64,000 bases of DNA from Variovorax sp. RA8 (GTDB lineage: Bacteria; Pseudomonadota; Gammaproteobacteria; Burkholderiales; Burkholderiaceae_C), in assembly GCF_901827175.1 (NCBI RefSeq), contig NZ_LR594662.1, forward strand, positions 1,736,001 through 1,800,000. Reading direction: 5' to 3'. Each line of letters begins with the position of its first letter. Position 1 is the first letter of the stretch. A model generated the notes under the pieces. It made no database searches, was not told the DNA's origin, and saw nothing but the letters and a program-made list of their open reading frames with translations. This document shows, one piece after another, positions 10,109 through 33,745 of the stretch. Made by a program: the position numbers and the translations under genes.

Positions 10109-10531
10109 CTAGAAGGATACGCAGGTTCGGGCCTTGACGCGCAGGACGGCCTCCTGCTCGAACTGCGCCTTGTACACGGCCACGAGCACCTGCACTGCGT
10201 TCTCGCTGGCGTCGTCATCGGGGTGGATGAGCTGAAGCACCTGCGACGCCTCCTGCACGATCGCGCCGTCGGCACCGCGCCATTGCCCCGAGGCGGGCGA
10301 CACTGTCAGGCCTTGCGGGAACCGCGGCGTGACAGCGCTCTTCAGGAATTCGCTCCACTCGGCCGGCGTCACCATGCCGCCGCGTGGCTTGCCGGTGCCG
10401 AAGTACAGCGTATCGTGGATCAGCGCTTCCTCTCCCGTTGCGCAGCCTGTCCGCAGCAGCGGCGCACAGCCGGCAAGCGTGGCCGCAACACTGGCGATGA
10501 CGATGGTGATGGTGATATGAGCGATGCGCAT
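10109..10531 (-). CDS. DUF3574 lipoprotein
   Basis: A 140-residue protein with a signal peptide ending in TLAGC (Cys22 lipidated). The mature part has DTLYFGTGKPRGGMVTPAEWSEFL and the DGLTV-like VSPASGQWRG block typical of DUF3574 proteins, which are small predicted periplasmic or outer-membrane lipoproteins of unknown function. It is the last chromosomal gene before the integrated element. Confidence 0.72.
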   Translation of the reverse strand: MRIAHITITIVIASVAATLAGCAPLLRTGCATGEEALIHDTLYFGTGKPRGGMVTPAEWSEFLKSAVTPRFPQGLTVSPASGQWRGADGAIVQEASQVLQLIHPDDDASENAVQVLVAVYKAQFEQEAVLRVKARTCVSF

Positions 10532-10624: not shown

Positions 10625-10673
10625 AATCTGGTCGGGGTGAGAGGATTCGAACCTCCGGCCTCTACGTCCCGAA
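10625..10673 (-). repeat. left attachment site: orphan 3' part of tRNA-Pro
   Basis: Identical over 49 bases to 33665-33713. On the minus strand it covers the tRNA from the anticodon loop through the CCA end and four more bases. The 5' half of the tRNA is absent and the flank toward the island is unrelated. It marks the chromosome-distal junction of the island. Confidence 0.92.
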
Positions 10674-11932: not shown

Positions 11933-12739
11933 CTACCCCTCTGGCTGCTCTTCTGCGGCCTCGATTCGAGGTGCCAGGCTTACCGACCAGTGACCACCGT
12001 GCTCCTGCTTGGAAGACAGCAGGTCGTACGTTTTCACCATGTCGAGCAGTCCTGAGTGACCATAGACTTTCGGAGAAAAGGCAGGGTCAGTGCGCTTGAG
12101 ATACTGCCCGAGTTGTCCCAGACCGACCTTGCCTTCTGATGTGTCGCTGGCAAGCAAGGTGACCGCGTCGATGACGAATCGCGGACGGCGCTTGGCCACG
12201 GGTTTGGGAGCTTCGACCTTTGGCGGCTCCACTTTGGCATTTGGTGCTTTGGGGAGCGCCTTGGCGCCGGCCTCGGCCCCTGCATCGGCAACCGTTTCGG
12301 GACGCGTCCATTCAAAGAACTGGTCGCTTGCATTGCGCAGGGCATCAGGGGTCTTGGGCTCGCCCACGATGCACACGGTGGCGCCGCGCTCGCGCAGCTT
12401 GCGGCACAGATAGGCGAAATCCGAGTCACTGGTGACCAAGCAGAAAGTGTCCGCGCGTTCATCAAACATCGCCTCCAGCGCATCCAAGGCGAGGGCGATG
12501 TCCGCGGTGTTCTTGCCCGATGCGTACTGGTACTGCAGGCACGGCGTGAACGCCTGGCGCACCAGCGCCTCCTGCCACTTCGCGGCCAGCGTCGTGTGGT
12601 TGCCGTAGCCACGCCGTAACACCACGCGCCCGAACTGCGCGACCACCCGCAAGGCATATTCAAGTACTTCAGGCGATACGTTGTCGCAGTCTACGAGCAC
12701 TGCCACGCGCGCCTCACCCCCGCTCCAACTGGCGTTCAT
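11933..12739 (-). CDS. NYN (PIN-like) domain protein with C-terminal LOTUS/OST-HTH domain
   Basis: A 268-residue LabA/limkain-type protein. The NYN nuclease-like domain is at about residues 10-145. Its acidic site is visible as VDCDN (D17, D19), ADIALALDA (D80) and TSDSDF (D105, D107). A lysine/proline/alanine linker (about 150-190) leads to a LOTUS/OST-HTH domain (about 190-255; GQLGQYLKRTDPAFSPKVYGHSGLLDMV). NYN domains are predicted metal-dependent RNases and LOTUS domains bind RNA, so an RNA-processing or RNA-targeted defence role is plausible. It is transcribed alone in the island. All catalytic acids are present. Confidence 0.82.
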   Translation of the reverse strand: MNASWSGGEARVAVLVDCDNVSPEVLEYALRVVAQFGRVVLRRGYGNHTTLAAKWQEALVRQAFTPCLQYQYASGKNTADIALALDALEAMFDERADTFCLVTSDSDFAYLCRKLRERGATVCIVGEPKTPDALRNASDQFFEWTRPETVADAGAEAGAKALPKAPNAKVEPPKVEAPKPVAKRRPRFVIDAVTLLASDTSEGKVGLGQLGQYLKRTDPAFSPKVYGHSGLLDMVKTYDLLSSKQEHGGHWSVSLAPRIEAAEEQPEG

Positions 12740-14650: not shown

Positions 14651-15529
14651 CTAGAGTCCAGGGGTTTGCATCGTAGTTGATGCGACTGTTTGCGCGTTGC
14701 TGCCAGCGAGCTGGCAGCAACGCGCGGCGAACACGGCCGGCGGCACGTACCCCAGGGTACTGTGCGGCCGGCGATGGTTGTAGTCCTCGCGCCAGTTGTC
14801 GATGACGCTGCGCATGTGGCTCAAGCTGGCAAACCAGTGCTGCGACAGGCACTCGTCGCGGAAGCGGCTGTTGAAGCTCTCGATGTAGGCGTTCTGCACC
14901 GGCTTGCCGGGCTGGATGAAGCGCAGCTCCACGCCGTTCTTCGCCGCCCAGGTCTGCATCGTGCGTCCGGCGAACTCCGGGCCGTTGTCGGTGCGGATCA
15001 CCTTGGGCAAGCCCCGCTCGGCCTTGGCCTGGTCTAGCACGCGCGTCACGTACAGCGCGGGGATCGATGTGTCGGCAACGATCTGCACCGACTCCTTGGA
15101 ACAGTCGTCCACCACCGTCAGCGTCTTTACCCGCCGGCCATTGGCCAGCTCATCAAACACAAAGTCCATGCTCCACACCTCGTTGGGTTGTGTCGGGCGT
15201 ACCAGTGGCTGGCGCTCTGGCACCGGCAGCTTCTTGCGCCGCCGCTTTCGCACCATCAAGCCCTCTTCGCGATAGATCCGGTAGGTGCGCTTCACGTTGA
15301 TGGCCCAACCGTCGATTTGCAGCCGGCTGTGCAGCATGCGGTAGCCGTGGCGGCGGTGCTGCCCCGCGAGCTCCTTCAGGCGCTCGCGCAAGGCCGCATT
15401 GCCGTCGTCGCGGGGTTCGTAGCGCAGCGTGCTGGCACTCATGCCCACCAGCCTGAGGGCCCGGCGTTCGCTCAGGCCCAGACCCCGAAACTGCCGCACG
15501 ACCTCGCGCCGCGCCGCCACGGCCTTCAC
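14651..15529 (-). CDS. IS3-family transposase OrfB (DDE integrase core)
   Basis: A 292-residue catalytic half of the transposase. An N-terminal HTH_21 region (HRRHGYRMLHSRLQ...RTYRIYREEGL) is followed by the rve core with SMDFVFDEL (first D), IRTDNGPEF (second D) and IESFNSRFRDECL (E), then the YNHRRPHSTLGY motif near the C-terminus. It begins at a GTG whose last bases overlap the OrfA stop, so a fused OrfAB protein is expected by minus-one frameshifting as in other IS3 elements. It ends 12 residues beyond the usual domain limit in the terminal repeat. Confidence 0.9.
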   Translation of the reverse strand: MKAVAARREVVRQFRGLGLSERRALRLVGMSASTLRYEPRDDGNAALRERLKELAGQHRRHGYRMLHSRLQIDGWAINVKRTYRIYREEGLMVRKRRRKKLPVPERQPLVRPTQPNEVWSMDFVFDELANGRRVKTLTVVDDCSKESVQIVADTSIPALYVTRVLDQAKAERGLPKVIRTDNGPEFAGRTMQTWAAKNGVELRFIQPGKPVQNAYIESFNSRFRDECLSQHWFASLSHMRSVIDNWREDYNHRRPHSTLGYVPPAVFAARCCQLAGSNAQTVASTTMQTPGL

Positions 15530-15801
15530 TTTCCCTTGAGCACCTCGCGCATGGCGTCGATCTCGAGCATCGAGTTGGCCAGCAGCTTCTTCAGCTTAGT
15601 GTTCTCTGCCTCCAGCGACTTCAGGCGCTGCGCGTCCGAGACGTTCATGCCACCGAACTTAGCCTTCCAGGCGTAGTAGCTCGGCTCGCTGAAGCCATGC
15701 TTCCTGCACAGCTCCTTGACCGGCATGCCCGCATCGGCCTCACGCAGGAAGCCAATGATCTGTTCCTCGGTGTATCGCTTCTTCATCGGTCCGATCTCCA
15801 T
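15526..15801 (-). CDS. IS3-family transposase OrfA (HTH_8 DNA-binding)
   Basis: A 91-residue protein: a helix-turn-helix (MKKRYTEEQIIGFLREADAG, then KELCRKHGFSEPSYYAWKAKFGG) followed by a leucine zipper (LKSLEAENTKLKKLLANSMLEIDAM). It binds the terminal repeats and supplies the N-terminal part of the OrfAB transposase. The ATG at 15786 (MKKRYTEE) may be the true start rather than 15801. It overlaps orfB by 4 bases. Confidence 0.9.
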   Translation of the reverse strand: MEIGPMKKRYTEEQIIGFLREADAGMPVKELCRKHGFSEPSYYAWKAKFGGMNVSDAQRLKSLEAENTKLKKLLANSMLEIDAMREVLKGK

Positions 15802-16289: not shown

Positions 16290-17363
16290 TTACGGAGTCG
16301 CAGTAAGGCCCTCACGCAACGCCCCAGCATGCGCAGCAATAAATGGAGGGGGCAGGGCGTTACCTATCATGAGAGCAATGGACTCCTTTCCGTGCGATAC
16401 ATCGAATCGATAGTCACGAGGGAATCCCTGTAGGAGGGCTGCCTCCCGCAATGTAATTGTTCGGTTCTGTGACGGATGGAGAAACCGTCCTTTCGATGGG
16501 TTGTGGCATCCGCTGGTAATGGTCGGGGCCACGTCGTCCCACGCCATTCGCCCATAAACGTCCCGAAAACCATCGCTTCTCTTATGGCAATCCAGTTGGT
16601 AGTCTTGGCCTAGGTCGGAGCGACTGCCGCCATTCTTCGGAATGCGCTTTATTAGTTCTTTCACTGCGCTCGAACGCCTTTCCGGGATTGCGTGCAGTTT
16701 ATCTTTGGTGCGCGAGGGAGCATCAAGACCGAGAATTGCATCCCTTACCGTAATTCGGTTCCTTCTGATGGGCGCTACCACCGGTTCATGAACTCTAGAG
16801 GCGAGCATGATTAAGCGCTTCCGCCGCTGCGGTACGCGATAGTCCGCAGCATCGAGAACTTGCACAACCGTCTTGTAGCCCAACGCTTTTAGGGAGTCAT
16901 TCATAGCTGAAAATCGCCCATCCTGAGCCAGCGCTGGAACATTCTCCAACATGATGGATTTTGGGTTGGTCAATTTTACAAAGCGGAGGAACTCAATGAC
17001 CAAATCATTTCGGCTGTCTTCGACAAATGCCCGCTGGTTCTTAGTCCTTAGGCGAGAAAATCCTTGGCAGGGCGGACAGCCCGCTAGCAGGTCCAACTCG
17101 CCGAATCGCAGTCCTGCGTTCGAAAGTACATCATGCGGATTCAAATTCCGAATGTCATCCTTGTAGAGGAAGACTTCCGGGTGATTTAGCTGATAGGTTA
17201 TCTGCGCTTTTGCGTCAATTTCGACGGCAGCTACAACGCTGAAGCCGGCGTCCCTCAGTCCCGTGGTTAGACCCCCGCACCCGCTGAATAAGTCAATTGC
17301 AGTCAGGGCTGCAGAAGAGTTCCTGTCAATCTGCGACGGTATGGTGTTGGCTGTGTTAAGCAT
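16290..17363 (-). CDS. DNA (cytosine-5) methyltransferase
   Basis: A 357-residue C5-methyltransferase with the canonical motifs in order: I (AIDLFSGCGGLTTGL, residues 22-36), IV (GCPPCQGFS with nucleophile Cys99), VI (MLENVP, Glu140), VIII (QRRKRLIML), IX (LREAALLQGFP) and X (IGNALPPPFIA). The target recognition domain between VIII and IX gives no readable specificity. GAGGG lies just upstream of the ATG. It is the last gene of the minus-strand defence operon, 77 bp after the OLD-like gene. Base composition is less GC-rich than the hsd genes, matching the OLD-like gene, so the two may have arrived together. Confidence 0.92.
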   Translation of the reverse strand: MLNTANTIPSQIDRNSSAALTAIDLFSGCGGLTTGLRDAGFSVVAAVEIDAKAQITYQLNHPEVFLYKDDIRNLNPHDVLSNAGLRFGELDLLAGCPPCQGFSRLRTKNQRAFVEDSRNDLVIEFLRFVKLTNPKSIMLENVPALAQDGRFSAMNDSLKALGYKTVVQVLDAADYRVPQRRKRLIMLASRVHEPVVAPIRRNRITVRDAILGLDAPSRTKDKLHAIPERRSSAVKELIKRIPKNGGSRSDLGQDYQLDCHKRSDGFRDVYGRMAWDDVAPTITSGCHNPSKGRFLHPSQNRTITLREAALLQGFPRDYRFDVSHGKESIALMIGNALPPPFIAAHAGALREGLTATP

Positions 17364-17440
17364 GACCCTCGTCTGATTCTTTATAAAGTAAAATGCATTC
17401 TTGTTGCTTCTTTCCGGGATGCGGTGCTGCGAATAGTTTT

Positions 17441-19222
17441 TTAAATATTTTCAAGCCATGTCTTCAACTGAGACCGAATTGCACTGATATCTGAATTGTT
17501 GGCTGGGATTTTTGCAATTTTCAGCTTCGCCCACGTGAGTATTTCCGCGGCGCCGTACTCGCCCACGTCCTCACCTTCTGTCACGAGATGAACAAGTGCC
17601 TCCTTCACCTCGTCGCGCGTATTATCCGCATGTCCTTGACCCGGCTCATAGTGTTCCAGCAGGATTTGCTCAGGTAGCTTTTGCGGCAAGAATGCAACAC
17701 GCTTGCGTAGCCACGCTAAATAGCCCAACTGGGAGTTCACCTTGGCGGTCTTATGTTCAGCGGTGCCAGCGCCACCGGGGATGTTGAAGAGTGGGTCTAC
17801 ACCAAGTTCATCCTTCAGTCGCTGACTGAGTGCCTCGTGGTCTGCAGGGGCGATAGTCGCAGGGTCGCTGAAAGTCTGGACCCGTTTCTTGTCTCCATCC
17901 AACATCAAGCACACAGGTTGCTGGGCATCCATGTAGAGAGGACCAGAATACTTTAGCATGTGGTCACCTCCTCCAGGAGAGACGCGTATTTCAAGTCGCG
18001 CTACATCGCCCGGGTCCAAAGTTTTAGACGCGTGGGAAGCAATAAGCGCCGCCAACTCGTCTTCGACTAAAACACGTACCTTTTGCGAAGGTACCTTGCC
18101 AAGACGAATCAACGCTGCCGATGGAGAGCTTTGGGGTAGAACCCGGGCTAACCCGCTTCCGTTGTCCTCGAAAACCTTAATGGCATTATCAGGAAGTCCA
18201 TTTAGAAATTCGGGTGAGTGTGTTGATAAAACGACCTGATGTTTGTGAAGCTTTATCTGCTCGAGCAAAAATCTTAGAACCGCCCTTTGAGCGCCCGGAT
18301 GCAGGGAGGTTTCCGGCTCGTCGAGCAATATAAGAGAATAAGGCTCAGCGTTAAGAATTTCCGTTACCAATCGGACGGCGGCAATCTCACCGCTTCCGGC
18401 GAATGCTTCCGAGTACTCTGCGCCGCGTCGAAAGACCACGCTCATGTCTCGCCCGCGGGCGCCGGGATAAAGCGAGTGTTTTATCAGTCGAGCGGACTCA
18501 TAGGTGCGTCCTAGAATCCGACAGACTTGGGGAAGTTCGTCATTTTTTCTTAGGTCGCGATTCTCGAACAATCGCTCGATTCCTGGCCCCAGTTTGTAGC
18601 TTTGGCGTCCGGACTCCTTTATCGTTTTTAGTCGACGCGCTTCGAGTTGCATAACTTTTCGCATTTCGTCGTTCTTGTCGAAATCGTCGAAATAGAAATA
18701 TCGGTCGAAGGAGCCAAACGCCGCTTTTAAATTTACGTAAACAACCTTCCGCTTAACTGGATTCCAGCGGTCGGCGTCTTTGCCTTCAAATGCAGCATCT
18801 GGCAGTGCTTTCATTCCATCTGCCTCGCTTAGCCGATAAGGTTCCCAGTAATCTGCCTTCTTTCCAATGCGTGCTTTTCTAGTCTCGACTGTGCCGTTGT
18901 ATGATTCGTTCCAGTGGCCGTAGAAATACCGTTGCGGGGAACCGCGCCGAGTTGAGATAGGGTCCAGTGCAGTTGCAAACCAGAATTTATGAGTGGAGTT
19001 CCCAAATGGCATTCCCCAAAGTGCGTGCAAGATTGAGCTTTTGCCGATGCCATTTGCGCCTACCAAAGCCGTCAGCGGGAAGTCAAAATCGATGCGTGTT
19101 CCTGGTGCAATGCTTTTGAATTTTGGGAACACCGCATGGGTAATATAGTGCTTCAAAGGTTTTCCTGGTTTGAAGCCTTCGATGACATTTGCCAGCGTTT
19201 CGATTTCTTTTTCGTCCGACAT
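17441..19222 (-). CDS. OLD-family AAA ATPase with TOPRIM-type nuclease domain
   Basis: A 593-residue protein. The ABC-like ATPase part has Walker A GANGIGKS (residues 55-62), signature GSGEIAAVRL (277-286), Walker B LILLDEPE (297-304) and H-loop STHSPEFL (333-340). A C-terminal TOPRIM-like part follows, with VLVEDEL (Glu387) and LMLDGDKK (Asp442, Asp444). This is the class 1 OLD plan: DNA-sensing ATPase fused to a nuclease, known from anti-phage systems. Its position directly before a cytosine methyltransferase gene and after hsdR on one strand suggests a coordinated defence module. Insertions between Walker A and the signature are typical. The order of 67 bp from hsdR leaves room for its own promoter. 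Confidence 0.8.
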   Translation of the reverse strand: MSDEKEIETLANVIEGFKPGKPLKHYITHAVFPKFKSIAPGTRIDFDFPLTALVGANGIGKSSILHALWGMPFGNSTHKFWFATALDPISTRRGSPQRYFYGHWNESYNGTVETRKARIGKKADYWEPYRLSEADGMKALPDAAFEGKDADRWNPVKRKVVYVNLKAAFGSFDRYFYFDDFDKNDEMRKVMQLEARRLKTIKESGRQSYKLGPGIERLFENRDLRKNDELPQVCRILGRTYESARLIKHSLYPGARGRDMSVVFRRGAEYSEAFAGSGEIAAVRLVTEILNAEPYSLILLDEPETSLHPGAQRAVLRFLLEQIKLHKHQVVLSTHSPEFLNGLPDNAIKVFEDNGSGLARVLPQSSPSAALIRLGKVPSQKVRVLVEDELAALIASHASKTLDPGDVARLEIRVSPGGGDHMLKYSGPLYMDAQQPVCLMLDGDKKRVQTFSDPATIAPADHEALSQRLKDELGVDPLFNIPGGAGTAEHKTAKVNSQLGYLAWLRKRVAFLPQKLPEQILLEHYEPGQGHADNTRDEVKEALVHLVTEGEDVGEYGAAEILTWAKLKIAKIPANNSDISAIRSQLKTWLENI

Positions 19223-19289
19223 TTATATCCTCGTTTTTCCTTCTTGGCTTTGATTTTTTTCGCAGATTCAAACGTCGCGAGTTGTAAAG

Positions 19290-22487
<3,198 letters not shown>

Positions 22488-22520
22488 GCGGCTGCTCCTT
22501 GTTCTTGTGCGTTGCTCTTT

Positions 22521-23468
22521 TCAGGTCAGCGCTTTGACCAAAGGCCGAAAGACGGTGGACATGCGCAGCGCCGCGTCTTCCAGCCAAGCGAAGTAGGCCG
22601 GCCATTGCGACTCCTCTTCCAGCGGTGAATCCAGGCGGACGTGCAGGATGCGGCAGGCATGACCGTCCGGCAGTTCGTTCCACTGCAGCTTGACATTCAA
22701 GGCCTCTTCGATGCTCGCCTGCTGGGCTTGGAGCTGCTTGAACATCGATTTTGAGTTTGCATGGCCGATATAGACCTCCATGCCCAAGCGGCTCTCTTTG
22801 GAGTTCACGGTCGCCGCCAAGTGCAGGCCCGCACGCCCGAGCGCCATGTTGGTCCAATGCTGGGGCAGCGGCTTCTGTGTCCGCAGCGTCGAGCTTTTGG
22901 CCTGCAGCCAGGCTGCCCATTCCGTCCAGAACTTCAATTGCCGCTGCTTGGTCGGTGTGGTGGTGGTAGCTGCCTTGGCGCTCTCGCGGCTGGTCTTGGT
23001 CCAGTCGTTGGGCTTGACCAGTACATTGAAGCTGGGTGCCATGGGCGAATCGCCAATGCGCCAGAGCTCCACCTCGACGGCAAAGAAGTTCAACTCCTCG
23101 GTGGTGTGCTGATTCAAGAAGTCCAGTGCCGCCACATGCTCCGCGCGAAAGGACTCCGCCAGCCAAATGACCTTGCGCGCGCCGACGCCAGCGGCGTAGG
23201 TGAGGATTTGGCCGAGGTGGGAGTGGTTGGTCTTCTCCAGCTGGTTCTCGATGATGACCTGACCTTCGTCGTCCGAGCACAGGACATCGAGCTTGAAGTC
23301 GCCGACCCAATGCTCCGTGCCGACCAGTTCCAGCTCGACCAGGCCGAGTGTCTTGGCCAGGAGGTCCAGATTGTCTTCATGGGCCAGCCACGGCGTGAAC
23401 TCGGTGGCTTCGTGCTTCCAGGCTTCGCGCAGGTTGATGCGTTCGAGTTTTCCGAGCGGAGTAGTCAT
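22521..23468 (-). CDS. DUF4268 protein with PD-(D/E)xK-like N-terminal domain
   Basis: A 315-residue protein. The start ATG at 23468 overlaps the hsdS stop as ATGA, so translation is coupled. Residues about 45-130 have DFKLDVLC (Asp57, Asp61) and VIIENQLEKTNHSHLGQILTYA (Glu74, Gln76), the D...ExQ form of the PD-(D/E)xK nuclease core. The C-terminal half (about 165-315; WTEWAAWLQ, RAGLHLAATVN, VYIGHANSK) is the DUF4268 region. Family members are often seen near restriction-modification genes, but their function is not settled. Here it is inserted between hsdS and hsdR, so it may be an accessory nuclease or specificity factor. Confidence 0.78.
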   Translation of the reverse strand: MTTPLGKLERINLREAWKHEATEFTPWLAHEDNLDLLAKTLGLVELELVGTEHWVGDFKLDVLCSDDEGQVIIENQLEKTNHSHLGQILTYAAGVGARKVIWLAESFRAEHVAALDFLNQHTTEELNFFAVEVELWRIGDSPMAPSFNVLVKPNDWTKTSRESAKAATTTTPTKQRQLKFWTEWAAWLQAKSSTLRTQKPLPQHWTNMALGRAGLHLAATVNSKESRLGMEVYIGHANSKSMFKQLQAQQASIEEALNVKLQWNELPDGHACRILHVRLDSPLEEESQWPAYFAWLEDAALRMSTVFRPLVKALT

Positions 23469-24775
23469 GCCAGGGCGTCCTCGAGTTGTTCTTGTGCCTC
23501 GGGCAGGCGGAGCTTGCCGGAGATGAGGCGGGGGAGCAGGGTGTCGCGAAGGTTCGCAAGCTCGCGCGCCTGAAGAGAGTTCGTAACGCGCCGCTCCAAC
23601 AACGACGCGGCGTGCCGTCCGAGCTCGCACATCACAGACGCCGGTGGCAGCGCAATCTTCGCTTCCGTCAGATGCTTGCGTTGAATATGGCCCATGGTCG
23701 TTGCCTTGTGAGCCGCAATCTCCCGAAAGTTCGGCAGGAAGTGACGAGTGGCCAAGTAGTAGAACCACTTCGGAACTTCGTCCGAGGTCACTTTGAACAG
23801 GTGTTGATTCAGGGCCCCGTCACCTCCGCACCAGAACTCGACTTCCAGTGAACCTGACCACGAGAACAGCACGTCCCCATCTCGAACGACGTACTCAGGC
23901 TTCAATCGGGCGCTTGCCCGGTCGGCTCCTACGATATTGCCAGCTCGAAGCTGGGCAATCTTGATGACTGGGAGGTAGTCGTCGTCGCCCTCTGCTGGAA
24001 ACTTCTGAAGTGCCAAGCCGTTCAGGTACCTTGCGAAGGAATCCAGCGAGCGTGCCTCCCAGCCCCTCGGTATCAACCCCAGCGCAGATTCCTCGAACTC
24101 ACCGGGAAACAGCGCCGCGGTCGCAGGGTTCAAGCCCTCGGGCTCGCGGCCCTCGGCTTTGGCGCGCACCGGGTCGAAGTCGATGAACCAACTCTTGAAC
24201 AGCGCTTGGGCAATGGATTCGAGCGTAGCGTTGGTTTGGCGCAGGAGGTGTATCCGGTCGTCGAGGCAGCCAAGCAGGGCACCCACTTCTCTTTGAATAT
24301 TTAATGGCGGCAGCGGAAACCTGAAGGTCAGAATTTGTTGTCTGCTGATATGCGGAACGGCGGTGCCGGTTTGGACTCCCAAGACATAGTCGGTAAAAGC
24401 TGCGCCACCTATGACGTATCGAAGGTACCGTGCGTCTAGATGCCTGCGAGCACGAAGTCTGGCAACCCGCTGGACGAGAAGGCTTGGCATGTCAGATTCA
24501 CGGATGTACGCAAATTTGAGCCCAGCGGCAATCCAGGGGCGGTCCATTGCGAGCACGACATCGTCCTTCTGAAGGAAATAGTCGCCCAAGTCCGCTAGCT
24601 CTTCCGCAGGCCAGCAGCGAGCGTCCTCCCAGCGGAGCGTCCCTTGCGCGACGTTGTCGCCGCGGAGCAACCGAATCCCTTCGCCGTTTGGAACGTATCT
24701 AGCGCTCTTGAACGGAAAGCCCGTTAGCAAGTCGACGCAGTCTGCAAGTGCGGTCGTGGCCCACTCAGACTGCAT
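23465..24775 (-). CDS. hsdS: type I restriction-modification, S (specificity) subunit
   Basis: A 436-residue protein with two target recognition domains separated by conserved helical spacers: TRD1 from about residue 5 to 170, a first coiled spacer ([36 protein letters not shown]), TRD2 from about 225 to 390, and a second spacer ([31 protein letters not shown]). It reads a bipartite DNA site and docks HsdM and HsdR. ATG 24775 is preferred over the TTG at 24781 because GGGAGG lies eight bases before it. It overlaps hsdM by 11 bases. Which sequence it recognises cannot be read from the protein. Confidence 0.93.
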
Positions 24776-26351
24776 ATCCAAGGCCTCCCAGCTTCTCCCG
24801 AATCATCGAATCCAGCTCTGCCCCCTTGGCCATCTGCTCGGCCAGTAGCGCCGCCATCCGCTCCATCTTTTCATCGAACGCCTCGTCGTCGTCGACGACT
24901 GTTTCGGCACCGACGTAGCGTCCGGGCGTTAGCACGTGGCCGTGTTCGGCAATCTCGGCCAAGCTCACAGCGCGACAAAACCCGGGCACGTCGGTGTAAG
25001 GCTCACGGGTTCCATCTTCGCCATCGGCGCGCCAGCGGTGCACTGTGGCGGCAATGCGCGCCACGTCCTCGTCGTCGAATACGCGGTTCACGCGTGTGGC
25101 CATCCGGCCGAGCTTCCGAGCGTCGATAAACAGCACTTCGCTACGCCGGTCTCGGTACTTCCTGCCGCCGGGCACCGCTACACCGCTCTTGTCCTTCGCC
25201 AGGAACCACAGGCAGGCCGGAATCTGCGTGTTGAAGAAGAGCTGCGGCGGCAGTGCCACCATCACGTCCACCACGTCGGCCTCCACCATTGCCTTGCGGA
25301 TGGCGCCCTCGTTGTTCTGGTTGCTGCTCATGCTGCCGTTGGCCAGCACTACGCCGGCTTGGCCGCGCGGGCTCAGGTGGTGCAGGATGTGCTGCAGCCA
25401 CGCGTAGTTGGCATTGCCGGCTGGCGGCGTGCCGTAGGCCCAGCGTCGGTCCTCAAGCAGGCGCTCGCCTCCCCAGTCACTGATGTTAAAGGGTGGGTTG
25501 GCCAGCACGTAGTCAGCACGCAAGTCAGGATGCTGGTCGCGGTGGAAGGTGTCGGCTGGCTCCTTGCCGAGGTCGGCGGCGAAGCCACGGATGGCGAGGT
25601 TCATAGCCACCAGACGCCAAGTGGTAGGGTTGGCCTCTTGGCCGTAGATGCTGATGTCGTCGGCCTTGCCACCGTGCGCCTCAATAAACTTCTCACTCTG
25701 CACGAACATGCCGCCAGAGCCGCAGGCCGGGTCGTAGACGCGGCCCTGATGCGGCGCAAGTACTTCAACCAGCACCTTCACGACGGAGGCCGGCGTGTAG
25801 AACTGGCCTCCCTTCTTGCCTTCGGCGCTGGCAAACTGGCCTAGGAAGTATTCGTAGACCTCGCCGAGCAGGTCCTTGGCATTGTGACCCTCACCGAAGC
25901 CGATGGTCGAGACTAGGTCGACCAGCTCGCCCAGGCGGCCAGGCTCCAGCTGGGTGCGGCCGAAGCGCTTGTCGAGGATGCCTTTCAAGCGCGGGTTGTC
26001 GGCTTCGATGGCTTCCAGTGCCGCGTCGATGCGCACGCCGATATCAGCCTGCTTGGCCAGGGCGCGGATGCTTTCCCAGCGGGCCTGGGTGGGCACCCAG
26101 AACACATTGGCCATGGTGTAGTAGTCGCGCTCTTCCAGGGCTTCGATGTGGTCGTCCACATCTGGAAGATGGAACTCGGAGCTTTCGTCGACGAGGGCTG
26201 CCTTGAGCGCTTCACGACGCTGGTCGAAGGCATCGGAGATGTACTTGAGGAAGATGAGACCGAGGACGATGTGCTTGTACTCCGCAGCGTCCATGGAGGA
26301 GCGGAGTTTGTCCGCGGCGGCCCAGAGGGTCTTCTTGAGGTCCTGGTTCAT
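24765..26351 (-). CDS. hsdM: type I restriction-modification, M (methyltransferase) subunit
   Basis: A 528-residue N6-adenine methyltransferase. The N-terminal helical HsdM_N domain (1-150; [23 protein letters not shown]) is followed by the SAM-binding DPACGSGG (207-214) and the catalytic NPPF (285-288). The C-terminal region binds HsdS. The start overlaps the stop of the small RHH gene as ATGA. It methylates the site chosen by HsdS and protects host DNA. Confidence 0.95.
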
Positions 26352-26548
26352 GCGTTTGGGTTCTTTCTTGCAGCGGGTGCCGGCGGCATGACAATGCCTT
26401 CGCGCTCGCAGTGCTGCAGGACCAGCCGCTCCAACATGTTCGAGAGCGTGCGATGCTCGCGCTCGGCGGCCAGGCGCAGGAGGCCCTTGACCTCAAGCGA
26501 CATGCGCAGGTTGACCGGGGCGGTCTTTCGTTCGGATATCCGGGGCAT
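26348..26548 (-). CDS. small ribbon-helix-helix protein, predicted operon regulator
   Basis: A 66-residue protein, [45 protein letters not shown] and on, with a short beta strand (PVNLRMS) then two helices, matching Arc/MetJ-type RHH dimers. It is the first gene of the restriction operon and overlaps hsdM by 4 bases. Two 11-bp direct repeats sit exactly at its start codon and upstream (26550-26571), one helical turn apart, as expected for an RHH dimer site, so autorepression is likely. A delay in restriction expression after entry into a new host would be the expected benefit. Confidence 0.65.
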
Positions 26549-26549
26549 T

Positions 26550-26571
26550 CTTTACGTAATCTTTACAGATT
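26550..26571 (-). promoter_or_regulatory. direct-repeat operator at the start of the restriction operon
   Basis: ctttacgtaat (26550-26560) and ctttacagatt (26561-26571) are tandem on the plus strand, spaced 11 bp. They abut the ATG of the RHH gene, whose product is the obvious candidate ligand. Position and spacing are seen; binding is inference. Confidence 0.45.
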
Positions 26572-31799: not shown

Positions 31800-33383
31800 T
31801 TACGGCTGTACCGCACGCTGGAAGGCTCGGAACACGACCACGTTGTCCGGAACAGACTCGGTGTCGGTAGCCACGCTGTCAGCTTTGTCCAAGACGCATG
31901 GGCTCGAGCGCACCGTGGCTGTCGCGCCACCAAGGCTCGAAAGCGCCGATTGCTTCAAGCGCATCCGGCCGTTGTGCTCCATCTTCTCCAACCGGGCTGC
32001 TTCGGCTTGGTCCGCCCGAATGGCCAGTGCGGTCATGCACAGATGGGTGTAGCGCGAGAGGCTGCGCAGGTCCCGATGCCCGCTGAAGGCCTGCAGGTCC
32101 AGGATGGTCGGAAACAGCCCTGACTCCGCAGCGCGACTGATGCCCTCGTGCCGCAGGTCGTGGATGCGCAGGTCCTCGATGCCGGCGGCGTCGCAGATGC
32201 GCCGCCAAGCTTTGAGCAAGGTTTTGAGGGCGATGTCGAAGACGAGGTCGCTCGTTCTCGGCAACTGCTTCAGCAAGGCCATCACGTCGGTGCGCAGAGC
32301 GAGCTTGCGCGGGCGTCCGTTCTTCGATGTTGGCATCTTGGCCTGTCGCCCGTCCCATTCGATTTGGTCCCAAAACAGCCCGAGGGCTTCGCTGCGACGC
32401 GCGGCGGTGGCCAACTGGAAGACCAGGAACGCCTCCATCGTGGGAATGTGCGGGAAGCCCTCTGCAATGGCCTGCTCGCGGGCACGCTCGTAGGCCGCTT
32501 TGCGGTCCCGATTGACGGCGTAGTGGGTCTCCCTTTGACGAGCTGCTTTGACGTCCTGTTCGGCGAGCTCTTGTACTCGGGCTTCAAGCGAAAGCATCTG
32601 GTCTTCTCGGCGAGCAGCTTCCATCAGGCGGATTTCTTCGTCACCGACCAGACGACGGTCACGCTCATTGAAGAATTTCAGGCGTCTGACGCCGTCCAGA
32701 GGCATATGCTCCAGATGGATACGCTGTTTGCTAATCTGGCGGTTGTAGACCGCGCTCAGGAGCTGAATCTGCCGATTGACGGTGGAGTCTTCCACGTATT
32801 CCCGGCGGTCCTCGATGAAGGCCTCGATATCTTCGGGCATCACCTCGGTGAGCGGCAAGTTGAGCCACTCAAGCGATGTCATCGGCGCGCGGACGGCGCC
32901 CAGGGGGGTAAGGACCTTGCCGAATTCCTTGAGCTCACGCTTGCGCTGTGCGATTCGCTTGGCCAGTTCATTGTTGCTGTCCGCCACCATCGCGTTCAGC
33001 ATGTATGTGTAAGTGACGCCGCCCTTGAGGCCCGGGCAGTCTTCTTCGATGTAGGCGCGAATCAGGTCGGCGGTCGTCGTCTTCGCGCCTTTGGTGTAGT
33101 CGCGGAACAGTCCTTGGCGTTGTTCGGCTTCTACCGTGGCTACGAAGGCCTCCGCCTCGCTGAGGGATTTGAACGTCTTGCTCTGGTCCTTGTGGCCTTC
33201 GCGCCGCACGCGCACCAGCCAGTTGCTGTCGCCTTGGTCGACGGTGGGTTCGAGACCTTGCTCGCGCAGGTTGTTGATGTAGGTCTGCGCGGCGTCCTTG
33301 CGGCTGTAGGCGAAAGTGCGCTTGAGATTGGGGCGACGCGCGACATTGACGATGAACGGGCTGCGGTTGGTGAAATCTGCCAT
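31800..33383 (-). CDS. tyrosine recombinase (site-specific integrase) of the island
   Basis: A 527-residue integrase. ATG 33383 has GGAGAACCC just before it and is preferred over the longer reading to 33578, which would run through the putative arm repeat. The N-terminal arm-binding part (about 1-110) is followed by a core-binding domain (about 110-260). A charged helical insert (about 275-330; LSLEARVQELAEQDVKAARQRE) precedes the catalytic domain. The catalytic Arg is in TAARRSEALGL, the HxxR is HDLRHEG, followed by the GHRDLRSLSRYTHL block with the nucleophilic Tyr. It lies 280 bp from the tRNA-Pro core site, the classical layout. All key residues are present. Confidence 0.93.
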   Translation of the reverse strand: MADFTNRSPFIVNVARRPNLKRTFAYSRKDAAQTYINNLREQGLEPTVDQGDSNWLVRVRREGHKDQSKTFKSLSEAEAFVATVEAEQRQGLFRDYTKGAKTTTADLIRAYIEEDCPGLKGGVTYTYMLNAMVADSNNELAKRIAQRKRELKEFGKVLTPLGAVRAPMTSLEWLNLPLTEVMPEDIEAFIEDRREYVEDSTVNRQIQLLSAVYNRQISKQRIHLEHMPLDGVRRLKFFNERDRRLVGDEEIRLMEAARREDQMLSLEARVQELAEQDVKAARQRETHYAVNRDRKAAYERAREQAIAEGFPHIPTMEAFLVFQLATAARRSEALGLFWDQIEWDGRQAKMPTSKNGRPRKLALRTDVMALLKQLPRTSDLVFDIALKTLLKAWRRICDAAGIEDLRIHDLRHEGISRAAESGLFPTILDLQAFSGHRDLRSLSRYTHLCMTALAIRADQAEAARLEKMEHNGRMRLKQSALSSLGGATATVRSSPCVLDKADSVATDTESVPDNVVVFRAFQRAVQP

Positions 33384-33569
33384 TGGGTTCTCCAAAAAAG
33401 TTGCTGGAGTCCCGTGTAGCGAGGCACTTGGAATATCGACGCTTAAAGCGGTCGTTAAAACGCTGAGCGCCGTGTCACCCGCCGTCACTGCGGCGCGCGT
33501 CGAATCAAGTGGGAGATGGTCAAAGAGACGAAGCTGCGCGAAGGCTAACGAACCTTCACGCAGCCCGAT

Positions 33570-33588
33570 TTGGAACAAATTTGGAACA
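33570..33588. repeat. putative integrase arm site (right copy)
   Basis: ttggaacaaatttggaaca, identical in sequence and orientation to 10780-10798, 77 bp inside the right core repeat and upstream of the integrase start. The 33384-33664 stretch is otherwise gene-free and is the expected attP arm region. Confidence 0.5.
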
Positions 33589-33664: not shown

Positions 33665-33713
33665 AATCTGGTCGGGGTGAGAGGATTCGAACCTCCGGCC
33701 TCTACGTCCCGAA
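33665..33713 (-). repeat. right attachment core within tRNA-Pro
   Basis: Perfect 49-bp copy of 10625-10673. It runs from the anticodon loop of the tRNA through its CCA end to four bases beyond. Confidence 0.92.
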
Positions 33714-33745
33714 CGTAGCGCTCTACCAGGCTAAGCTACACCCCG
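33669..33745 (-). tRNA. tRNA-Pro (anticodon CGG)
   Basis: The minus strand folds as a standard cloverleaf of 77 bases including an encoded CCA. The acceptor stem is CGGGGTG/CACCCCG with discriminator A, the D stem GCTT/GAGC, the anticodon stem CTACG/CGTAG with loop TTCGGGA (anticodon CGG), variable loop AGGCC, T stem GGAGG/CCTCT and loop TTCGAAT. It is the integration target of the island; insertion restored the 3' half, so the gene stays functional. Confidence 0.95.

Follow-up and report, generated by a model that had tools for sequence, protein, structure and literature searches.

Two stacked DNA-defence modules on a tRNA-Pro island of Variovorax sp. RA8, one of them pairing an OLD-type ATPase with a cytosine methyltransferase

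Introduction

Do seven defence-type genes that follow one another on a single strand form one machine, or are they separate modules that merely resemble an operon? The question is raised by a 64,000-nucleotide stretch of the Variovorax sp. RA8 genome (NZ_LR594662.1, positions 1,736,001 to 1,800,000; hereafter the window), in which positions 16290–26571 encode, in order on the minus strand, an RHH (ribbon–helix–helix)-like small putative regulator, the type I restriction-modification (R-M) subunits HsdM and HsdS, a DUF4268 protein, the third subunit HsdR, an OLD-type ATPase and a C5-cytosine DNA methyltransferase (C5 MTase). The original prediction, arguing from operon structure, proposed cooperation within one layered seven-gene system. 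We find instead that two DNA-defence modules, acquired separately and differing in composition and company, lie head to tail on an integrative island, and we see no sign that the seven genes are one machine. Overall, we think it probable that the DUF4268 protein in the variable slot of module 1, a type I R-M operon, works as an accessory effector and that module 2, the OLD–C5 MTase pair, is R-M-like. This pairing is widespread and little described, and is the more interesting of the two modules.

Results

Two modules meet between hsdR and the OLD gene

The composition of the array breaks between hsdR (19290–22487) and the OLD gene (17441–19222). GC content at third codon positions is 0.79 in the RHH-like gene, 0.80 in hsdM, 0.69 in hsdS, 0.81 in the DUF4268 gene and 0.85 in hsdR, and drops to 0.52 in the OLD gene and 0.56 in the C5 MTase gene (16290–17363). 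Database relatives of the DUF4268 protein reach 95–98% identity, and the best full-length relative of OLD is 73% identical; one 334-residue OLD entry, identical over 56%, has no stated source and could be the protein of the window itself.

The modules also keep different company. Searching genome contigs with an OLD profile of 28 sequences (the window's and 27 of 120 listed matches) gave 152 relatives, and the best 80 of these, at 79 loci, were kept; 58 loci scoring at least 60 bits against the window's OLD form the OLD group, and the other 21, with weak ATPase matches, serve as controls. At the 29 OLD loci flanked on both sides by 8 kb or more, phmmer searches with the proteins of the window (>60 bits) find no hsd homologue, a count that homologues too distant for such queries would escape. 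Nor does any of the 40 hsdR regions fetched (one per genome, 6.5 to 19 kb long) contain an OLD or C5 MTase match above 35 bits, and a search for the same gene order found the whole array at no other locus among those inspected. Independent occurrence of the OLD–MTase pair and the hsd genes, named beforehand, together with separate promoters, as the finding that would speak against a layered system, is thus largely what we see, with two counter-examples: viral contig L226, where the pair lies beside type I genes (hsdR, hsdM) on the opposite strand, and L083, where an HsdM-like match adjoins OLD as the sole hsd match in all 58 OLD loci.

Among the 298 other genomes of the family, none has a strong OLD relative (best 33%, partial, E 1e-21; at most four candidates scored per genome), tblastn with OLD gave no match in phages and 15 plasmid records, none with 80% coverage, and the OLD–MTase DNA had no megablast match in plasmids. 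A single-sequence OLD scan of genome contigs returned no relative, whereas the alignment-based scan did find relatives.

An OLD–C5 MTase pair recurs across distant bacteria

A C5 MTase gene lies on the same strand as OLD and within 200 bp of it in 47 of the 58 loci, overlapping it in 26; six more loci have one in the same cassette without adjacency. Of the control loci, 1/21 has a C5 MTase. Because the MTase is upstream at 29 of the 47 loci and downstream at 18, so that both gene orders occur, the link appears to outlive rearrangement. By their organism names, the relatives kept from the scan span Pseudomonadota, Bacteroidota, Actinomycetota, Cyanobacteria and Planctomycetes. All eight OLD loci on viral contigs are likewise paired with a C5 MTase, although L225, with scores identical to those of L031, is probably that locus again.

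Further genes, of EcoRII, GHKL, UvrD-like and Vsr type, are added at some OLD loci. A Vsr-like gene lies within five genes of OLD at 10 loci (from clustering, with Pfam for L034 only), a GHKL ATPase is present at three (Pfam for L054 only), and in L085 a GHKL ATPase separates OLD from the C5 MTase. L031, L032 and L035 have UvrD-like helicase genes close to the pair (from clustering, with Pfam for L031 only); a lost UvrD-like third gene in the window, as in its nearest relative L031, was considered and rejected, as the L031 and L035 helicases used as queries found no remnant. Five Bacteroidota loci (L058, L066, L067, L069 and L071) have a different C5 MTase upstream and an HpaII-type endonuclease gene next to OLD, with one further gene in L067; Pfam identifies the endonuclease for L066 only (451 bits, L066:8921-10000), and the other four cluster with L066. 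No C5 MTase was found at L081, L084 and L086, which lie on short contigs or are truncated by a contig end. In L038, L039 and L040, a gene of ~400 codons of unknown family and one of ~1230 codons flank the pair, the latter having protein-kinase and ORC-CDC6-like matches in L040.

Both partners retain catalytic residues

We compared 48 pairs (47 loci and the window, with four split-OLD loci dropped and four HpaII-type loci included). In the MTase (Pfam DNA_methylase, 205 bits), the PC, ENV and QxRxR residues expected of a C5-cytosine MTase are invariant in 48/48; we take these to be the motif IV Pro-Cys, the motif VI Glu-Asn-Val and the motif VIII Gln-x-Arg-x-Arg. OLD is a single open reading frame (ORF) of 593 residues that holds an ATPase (Pfam AAA_15/AAA_21) and a putative C-terminal TOPRIM-type core. 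The ATPase is ABC-type, with Walker A and B motifs, and G55, N57, G58, K61, D301, E302 and H335 are present in all 48 sequences (G60 is N in 11 of 48). The TOPRIM-type acids E387, D442 and D444 are also invariant in 48/48, and the predicted model (pLDDT 84.8) has TsOLD (6p74) as its top Foldseek match (617 columns, E 2e-13); we assign the TOPRIM-type core because of these invariant acids and this whole-length match. The VIA-align comparison falls mostly on the ATPase domain, and neither TsOLD nor GajA is among its 50 rows shown; the best PADLOC (2023) model is HEC-04 (96 bits, partial), with AriA, NsnB, MAD3 and Old lower and the GajA profiles, among the best 25 PADLOC matches, at only 41–45 bits; and no NCBIfam model reaches its cut-off.

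The partners have also diverged together: OLD and MTase distances correlate with a Mantel r of 0.607, reached by 0 of 2,000 shuffles, which ignore shared ancestry. At equal core identity, the MTase target-recognition region is 1.5 to 2.4 times better kept among pair MTases than against 13 background MTases, one of which (L061) is itself of pair type; its conservation is 0.22 (n 54) versus 0.09 (n 333) at core identities of 0.25–0.30, and 0.21 (n 290) versus 0.14 (n 110) at 0.30–0.35. That the pair MTases share one target sequence is suggestive only, and we do not take this conservation as proof of a single shared target.

Comparison with known systems

OLD classes 1 to 4 are defined by gene context, with a class 5 in Sulfolobales, according to the available parts of PMC10568477 and PMC12796447, and in what is available of their main texts the words 'methyltransferase' and 'methylase' have zero occurrences. 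No PADLOC (2023) model names an OLD–C5 MTase pair, and we recognised no such system among the literature matches listed, which are mainly open literature without supplements. The window's protein resembles Class 1 OLD (TsOLD, P2 Old) in joining an N-terminal ABC-type ATPase to a putative C-terminal TOPRIM-type core, but Class 1 is a single gene in the accessible text of PMC10568477, whereas here there is a C5 MTase partner. E. coli YbjD is reported to give anti-phage phenotypes when its expression is induced (PMC13261556, 2026). Gabija (Class 2, GajA with UvrD-like GajB) is similar in its OLD-type ATPase nuclease and in the UvrD-like genes near the L031, L032 and L035 pairs; however, the seven genes include no UvrD-like helicase and the usual partner is a C5 MTase. 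For the retron-associated Class 3, we found no reverse transcriptase in the seven array genes and 19 other window ORFs scanned, the non-coding RNA not having been searched for. In PARIS (Class 4), AriA and AriB are separate genes, in contrast to the single ORF here.

Two kinds of R-M neighbourhood come close from the methyltransferase side. Type II R-M systems with a C5 MTase and Vsr (Dcm, EcoRII and HpaII type) share the intact C5 MTase motifs and the nearby Vsr-like genes, but Pfam finds no classical endonuclease family in the core pair or the array, and an OLD-type ATPase stands in that place instead. MORC/paraMORC R-M neighbourhoods (PMC2292703, as far as its text is available) likewise combine an ATPase, a cytosine methylase and Vsr; their ATPase, however, is GHKL, and 'OLD' appears there once, in the title of a reference.

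Module 1 is a type I operon with a variable slot

Module 1 has HsdM, HsdS and HsdR homologues in one operon, the layout of a type I R-M system: hsdM (24765–26351, minus strand) encodes an N6-adenine methyltransferase (Pfam N6_Mtase, 351 bits; HsdM_N, 96.5 bits), hsdS (23465–24781, minus) a specificity subunit with two Methylase_S stretches, and hsdR the restriction and translocation subunit (Pfam HSDR_N, SWI2_SNF2 and T1RH-like_C; NCBIfam TIGR00348 above cut-off). The module would restrict DNA without its adenine mark. Of 299 family genomes, 61 have an HsdR match at E 1e-100 or better, that of RA8 included. We recognised hsdS upstream of hsdR on the same strand in 36 of the 40 regions fetched around such matches, with more than 250 bp between the two genes in 33 of the 36. 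A Pfam scan of the longest slot ORFs from 18 of these 33 regions and of two plasmid slots returned DUF3800, Schlafen AlbA_2, AAA_21, AAA_5, Fic, Mrr, Abi_C, SIR2, GmrSD, AAA_22 and YhcG, and one ORF had no match. With its family varying among relatives, the gene between hsdS and hsdR is exchangeable cargo, as described for rlo ORFs (PMC4619093). We also considered OLD as slot-type cargo of hsd operons, and rejected this because the AAA_21 slot ATPases (L171, L174) lie outside the OLD group.

In the window, the slot is filled by the DUF4268 gene (22521–23468, minus; PF14088, 97 bits; PADLOC PDC-S11, 399 bits). A full-length DUF4268 gene is found in none of the 40 hsdR regions, and the L178 slot has a short DUF4268-like fragment. 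Two stretches between hsdS and hsdR elsewhere (G167:C13:23271-23369 and G076:C11:579249-579338) match only the first ~30 DUF4268 residues, at 70–73% identity, and look like the remaining start of a replaced slot gene. The arrangement hsdM–hsdS–X–hsdR, with a cargo gene before hsdR, is that of type I R-M systems linked to rlo ORFs or prrC, although the slot gene here is DUF4268 (PDC-S11) and not DUF262, PrrC or RloC; the name RloF is credited to Miller et al. for common elements between HsdS and HsdR genes in the available part of PMC4619093.

The DUF4268 protein may be a nuclease. D61, E74 and Q76 are invariant in an alignment of 22 close sequences, and the distant relatives L116 and L117 read E-x-K at the E74/Q76 site, which suggests a putative PD-(D/E)xK core in which Gln replaces Lys (ExQ for ExK). 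Against this nuclease reading, which is weak, the fold model has a pLDDT of 69 and weak structural matches only; a YbjN-type fold for the C-terminal domain was rejected (E 1.6e-3, too weak to use). By analogy with the linkage of PrrC and RloC, the protein, of another family and likely a nuclease, could be an accessory effector linked to the type I enzyme. It is matched in 14 of 299 family genomes, its own included (next best 44–45% identity), and at E 1e-20 in 4 of 369 genomes of a class sample, again including its own. Among 26 viral-contig loci with DUF4268 relatives, four (L235, L246, L247 and L253) have homologues of both HsdM and HsdR nearby and a fifth (L238) has an HsdM homologue alone; at four plasmid examples inspected, of 76 records, no hsd genes are annotated within 8 kb.

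Gene layout and transcription signals

The ORF coordinates bear out the predicted order of seven genes on the minus strand. The RHH-like gene and hsdM overlap by 4 bp, hsdM and hsdS by 17 bp, and hsdS and the DUF4268 gene by 4 bp; gaps of 33, 67 and 77 bp follow between DUF4268 and hsdR, hsdR and OLD, and OLD and C5 MTase, respectively. The start codon of hsdS is TTG, with an in-frame ATG 6 bases later, and that of hsdR is GTG. The listed DUF4268 ORF starts at 23768, yet three of four PADLOC profiles begin at its residue 101; for this reason, and because of the ATGA overlap with the hsdS stop, the ATG at 23468 is the likely start. The defence-type content proposed for the array stands, and Pfam backs six of the seven gene names, although it sees the sixth gene as an AAA ATPase and not as OLD. 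The first gene (26348–26548, minus; a 66-residue protein) is labelled RHH by resemblance only, as Pfam, PADLOC and NCBIfam give no match for it.

It is possible that all seven genes are co-transcribed. Collinearity permits read-through, a sequence scan found no terminator-like site in the 67-bp or 77-bp gap, and sigma-70-like matches are at chance level (3 found versus 2.5 expected). RHH-like relatives head the C5 MTase–OLD pair in L032:1626-1979, L038:8558-8923 and L226:6700-6921, whereas here the RHH-like gene heads the hsd operon; none above 35 bits is present in the 40 hsdR regions, some of which stop short of the upstream side of hsdM.

An integrative element carries the array

The seven genes are carried by an integrative element of ~23 kb at tRNA-Pro(CGG) (33669–33745, minus). 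A tyrosine integrase gene (31800–33578, minus; Pfam Phage_integrase, 63 bits) lies beside the tRNA, and a 49-bp attachment (att) repeat at the 3′ end of the tRNA (33665–33713) recurs exactly as a distal copy at 10625–10673. We compared the site with three congeners that have the top-scoring matches among 61 genomes of the genus, and the element is absent from 3/3. G671 and G678 match the window up to position 10673 and, without a break, again from 33665, leaving a single att copy; in G713, the left-flank match stops at 10187, ~80 bases short of the single att copy. Integrase, att repeats and empty site in relatives together identify an integrative element.

Further genes of the element encode a Replication-relaxation protein, a protein with a weak SSB match (both by Pfam) and an IS3-type insertion sequence, whose two ORFs (14651–15801, minus; rve and HTH_Tnp_1) come after the OLD–MTase pair and which has approximate terminal inverted repeats near 14.61 and 15.86 kb. 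A protein with NYN and OST-HTH/LOTUS domains is also encoded on the island, at 11933–12739. In G669 and G690, different islands with related integrases (41% and 56% identity) occupy the same tRNA-Pro; these are about 25 and 47 kb long (L220-L221 and L222-L224), carry other cargo and, by tblastn at E 1e-5, contain none of the seven array genes.

Discussion

Module 2 is most likely an R-M system with OLD as its nuclease, as judged from its sequences. The C5 MTase would mark a target sequence on host DNA, and OLD, gated by ATP, would cut or nick DNA without that mark. We favour this logic because an MTase is usually kept beside an ATPase with intact catalytic residues, and protection is the simplest role for it. 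Several observations weigh against this reading. Pfam gives no TOPRIM match for OLD up to E 0.5; E518 is D in three sequences, and E389, D403 and W504 are not invariant; and the TsOLD match has TM-scores of 0.32/0.36 and a root-mean-square deviation of 15.3, the domain order agreeing and the relative placement differing. The Mantel correlation is compatible with common descent of larger blocks. In L061 the C5 MTase is 4.7 kb away on the other strand, and L065, an OLD locus with full flanks, has no C5 MTase. Finally, OLD need not be the restriction nuclease, given the five loci with an HpaII-type enzyme.

Because of those HpaII-type loci, the main rival is that the C5 MTase, with or without an endonuclease, is primary and OLD is a guard, triggered as a suicide or back-up nuclease once methylation or restriction has been blocked. 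We regard this as unlikely, if less so than the other alternatives. An HpaII-type gene stands between C5 MTase and OLD in the five Bacteroidota loci, the EcoRII-type, GHKL, UvrD-like and Vsr genes added elsewhere would suit a guard, and PrrC, which a linked type I enzyme silences and a phage anti-restriction factor activates (PMC2610378, available in part), offers a precedent; however, OLD and C5 MTase are direct neighbours with no endonuclease between them in 47/58 loci, endonucleases elsewhere in those loci not having been surveyed individually. It is more doubtful that OLD is a Class 1-like nuclease indifferent to methylation, with the C5 MTase an epigenetic or addiction gene travelling along. 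OLD proteins of other classes do act without MTases (PMC10568477, in its available part), PA1939, another OLD protein from P. aeruginosa, acted independently of R-M (PMC6945700, likewise in part), and L065 and the three short or cut contigs lack a C5 MTase, but adjacency across phyla, in either gene order, and correlated divergence argue against it.

Least likely of all, and to our mind improbable, is the layered system first proposed, in which an RHH-controlled single transcript would add the OLD–MTase pair as a further layer of defence behind type I restriction. The single strand, the short gaps free of terminator-like sites at 67 and 77 bp, the RHH relatives heading the pair in L032, L038 and L226 (so that this type of regulator occurs with both modules) and, in L226, the position of the pair next to opposite-strand hsdR and hsdM are all in its favour. 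Against it stand the 0/29 well-flanked OLD loci with an hsd homologue, the 0/40 hsdR regions with OLD or C5 MTase, the break in composition and the lack of the whole array at any other locus inspected. The array thus illustrates that islands can stack modules resembling one operon.

More broadly, the OLD–C5 MTase pair is the part worth following, and the array itself matters less. The pair may be a phylum-crossing defence system, unnamed in the sources searched, in which an ATP-gated OLD nuclease, combining an SMC/Rad50-like ATPase with TOPRIM, replaces the classical restriction enzyme and reads a cytosine mark, and which would form a further OLD class defined by its MTase partner; we advance this tentatively, at somewhat less than even confidence. 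If true, a C5 MTase annotated as an orphan may have an ATPase-nuclease partner, and the conserved MTase would answer the question of self and foreign for one group of OLD proteins: self DNA may carry 5-methylcytosine.

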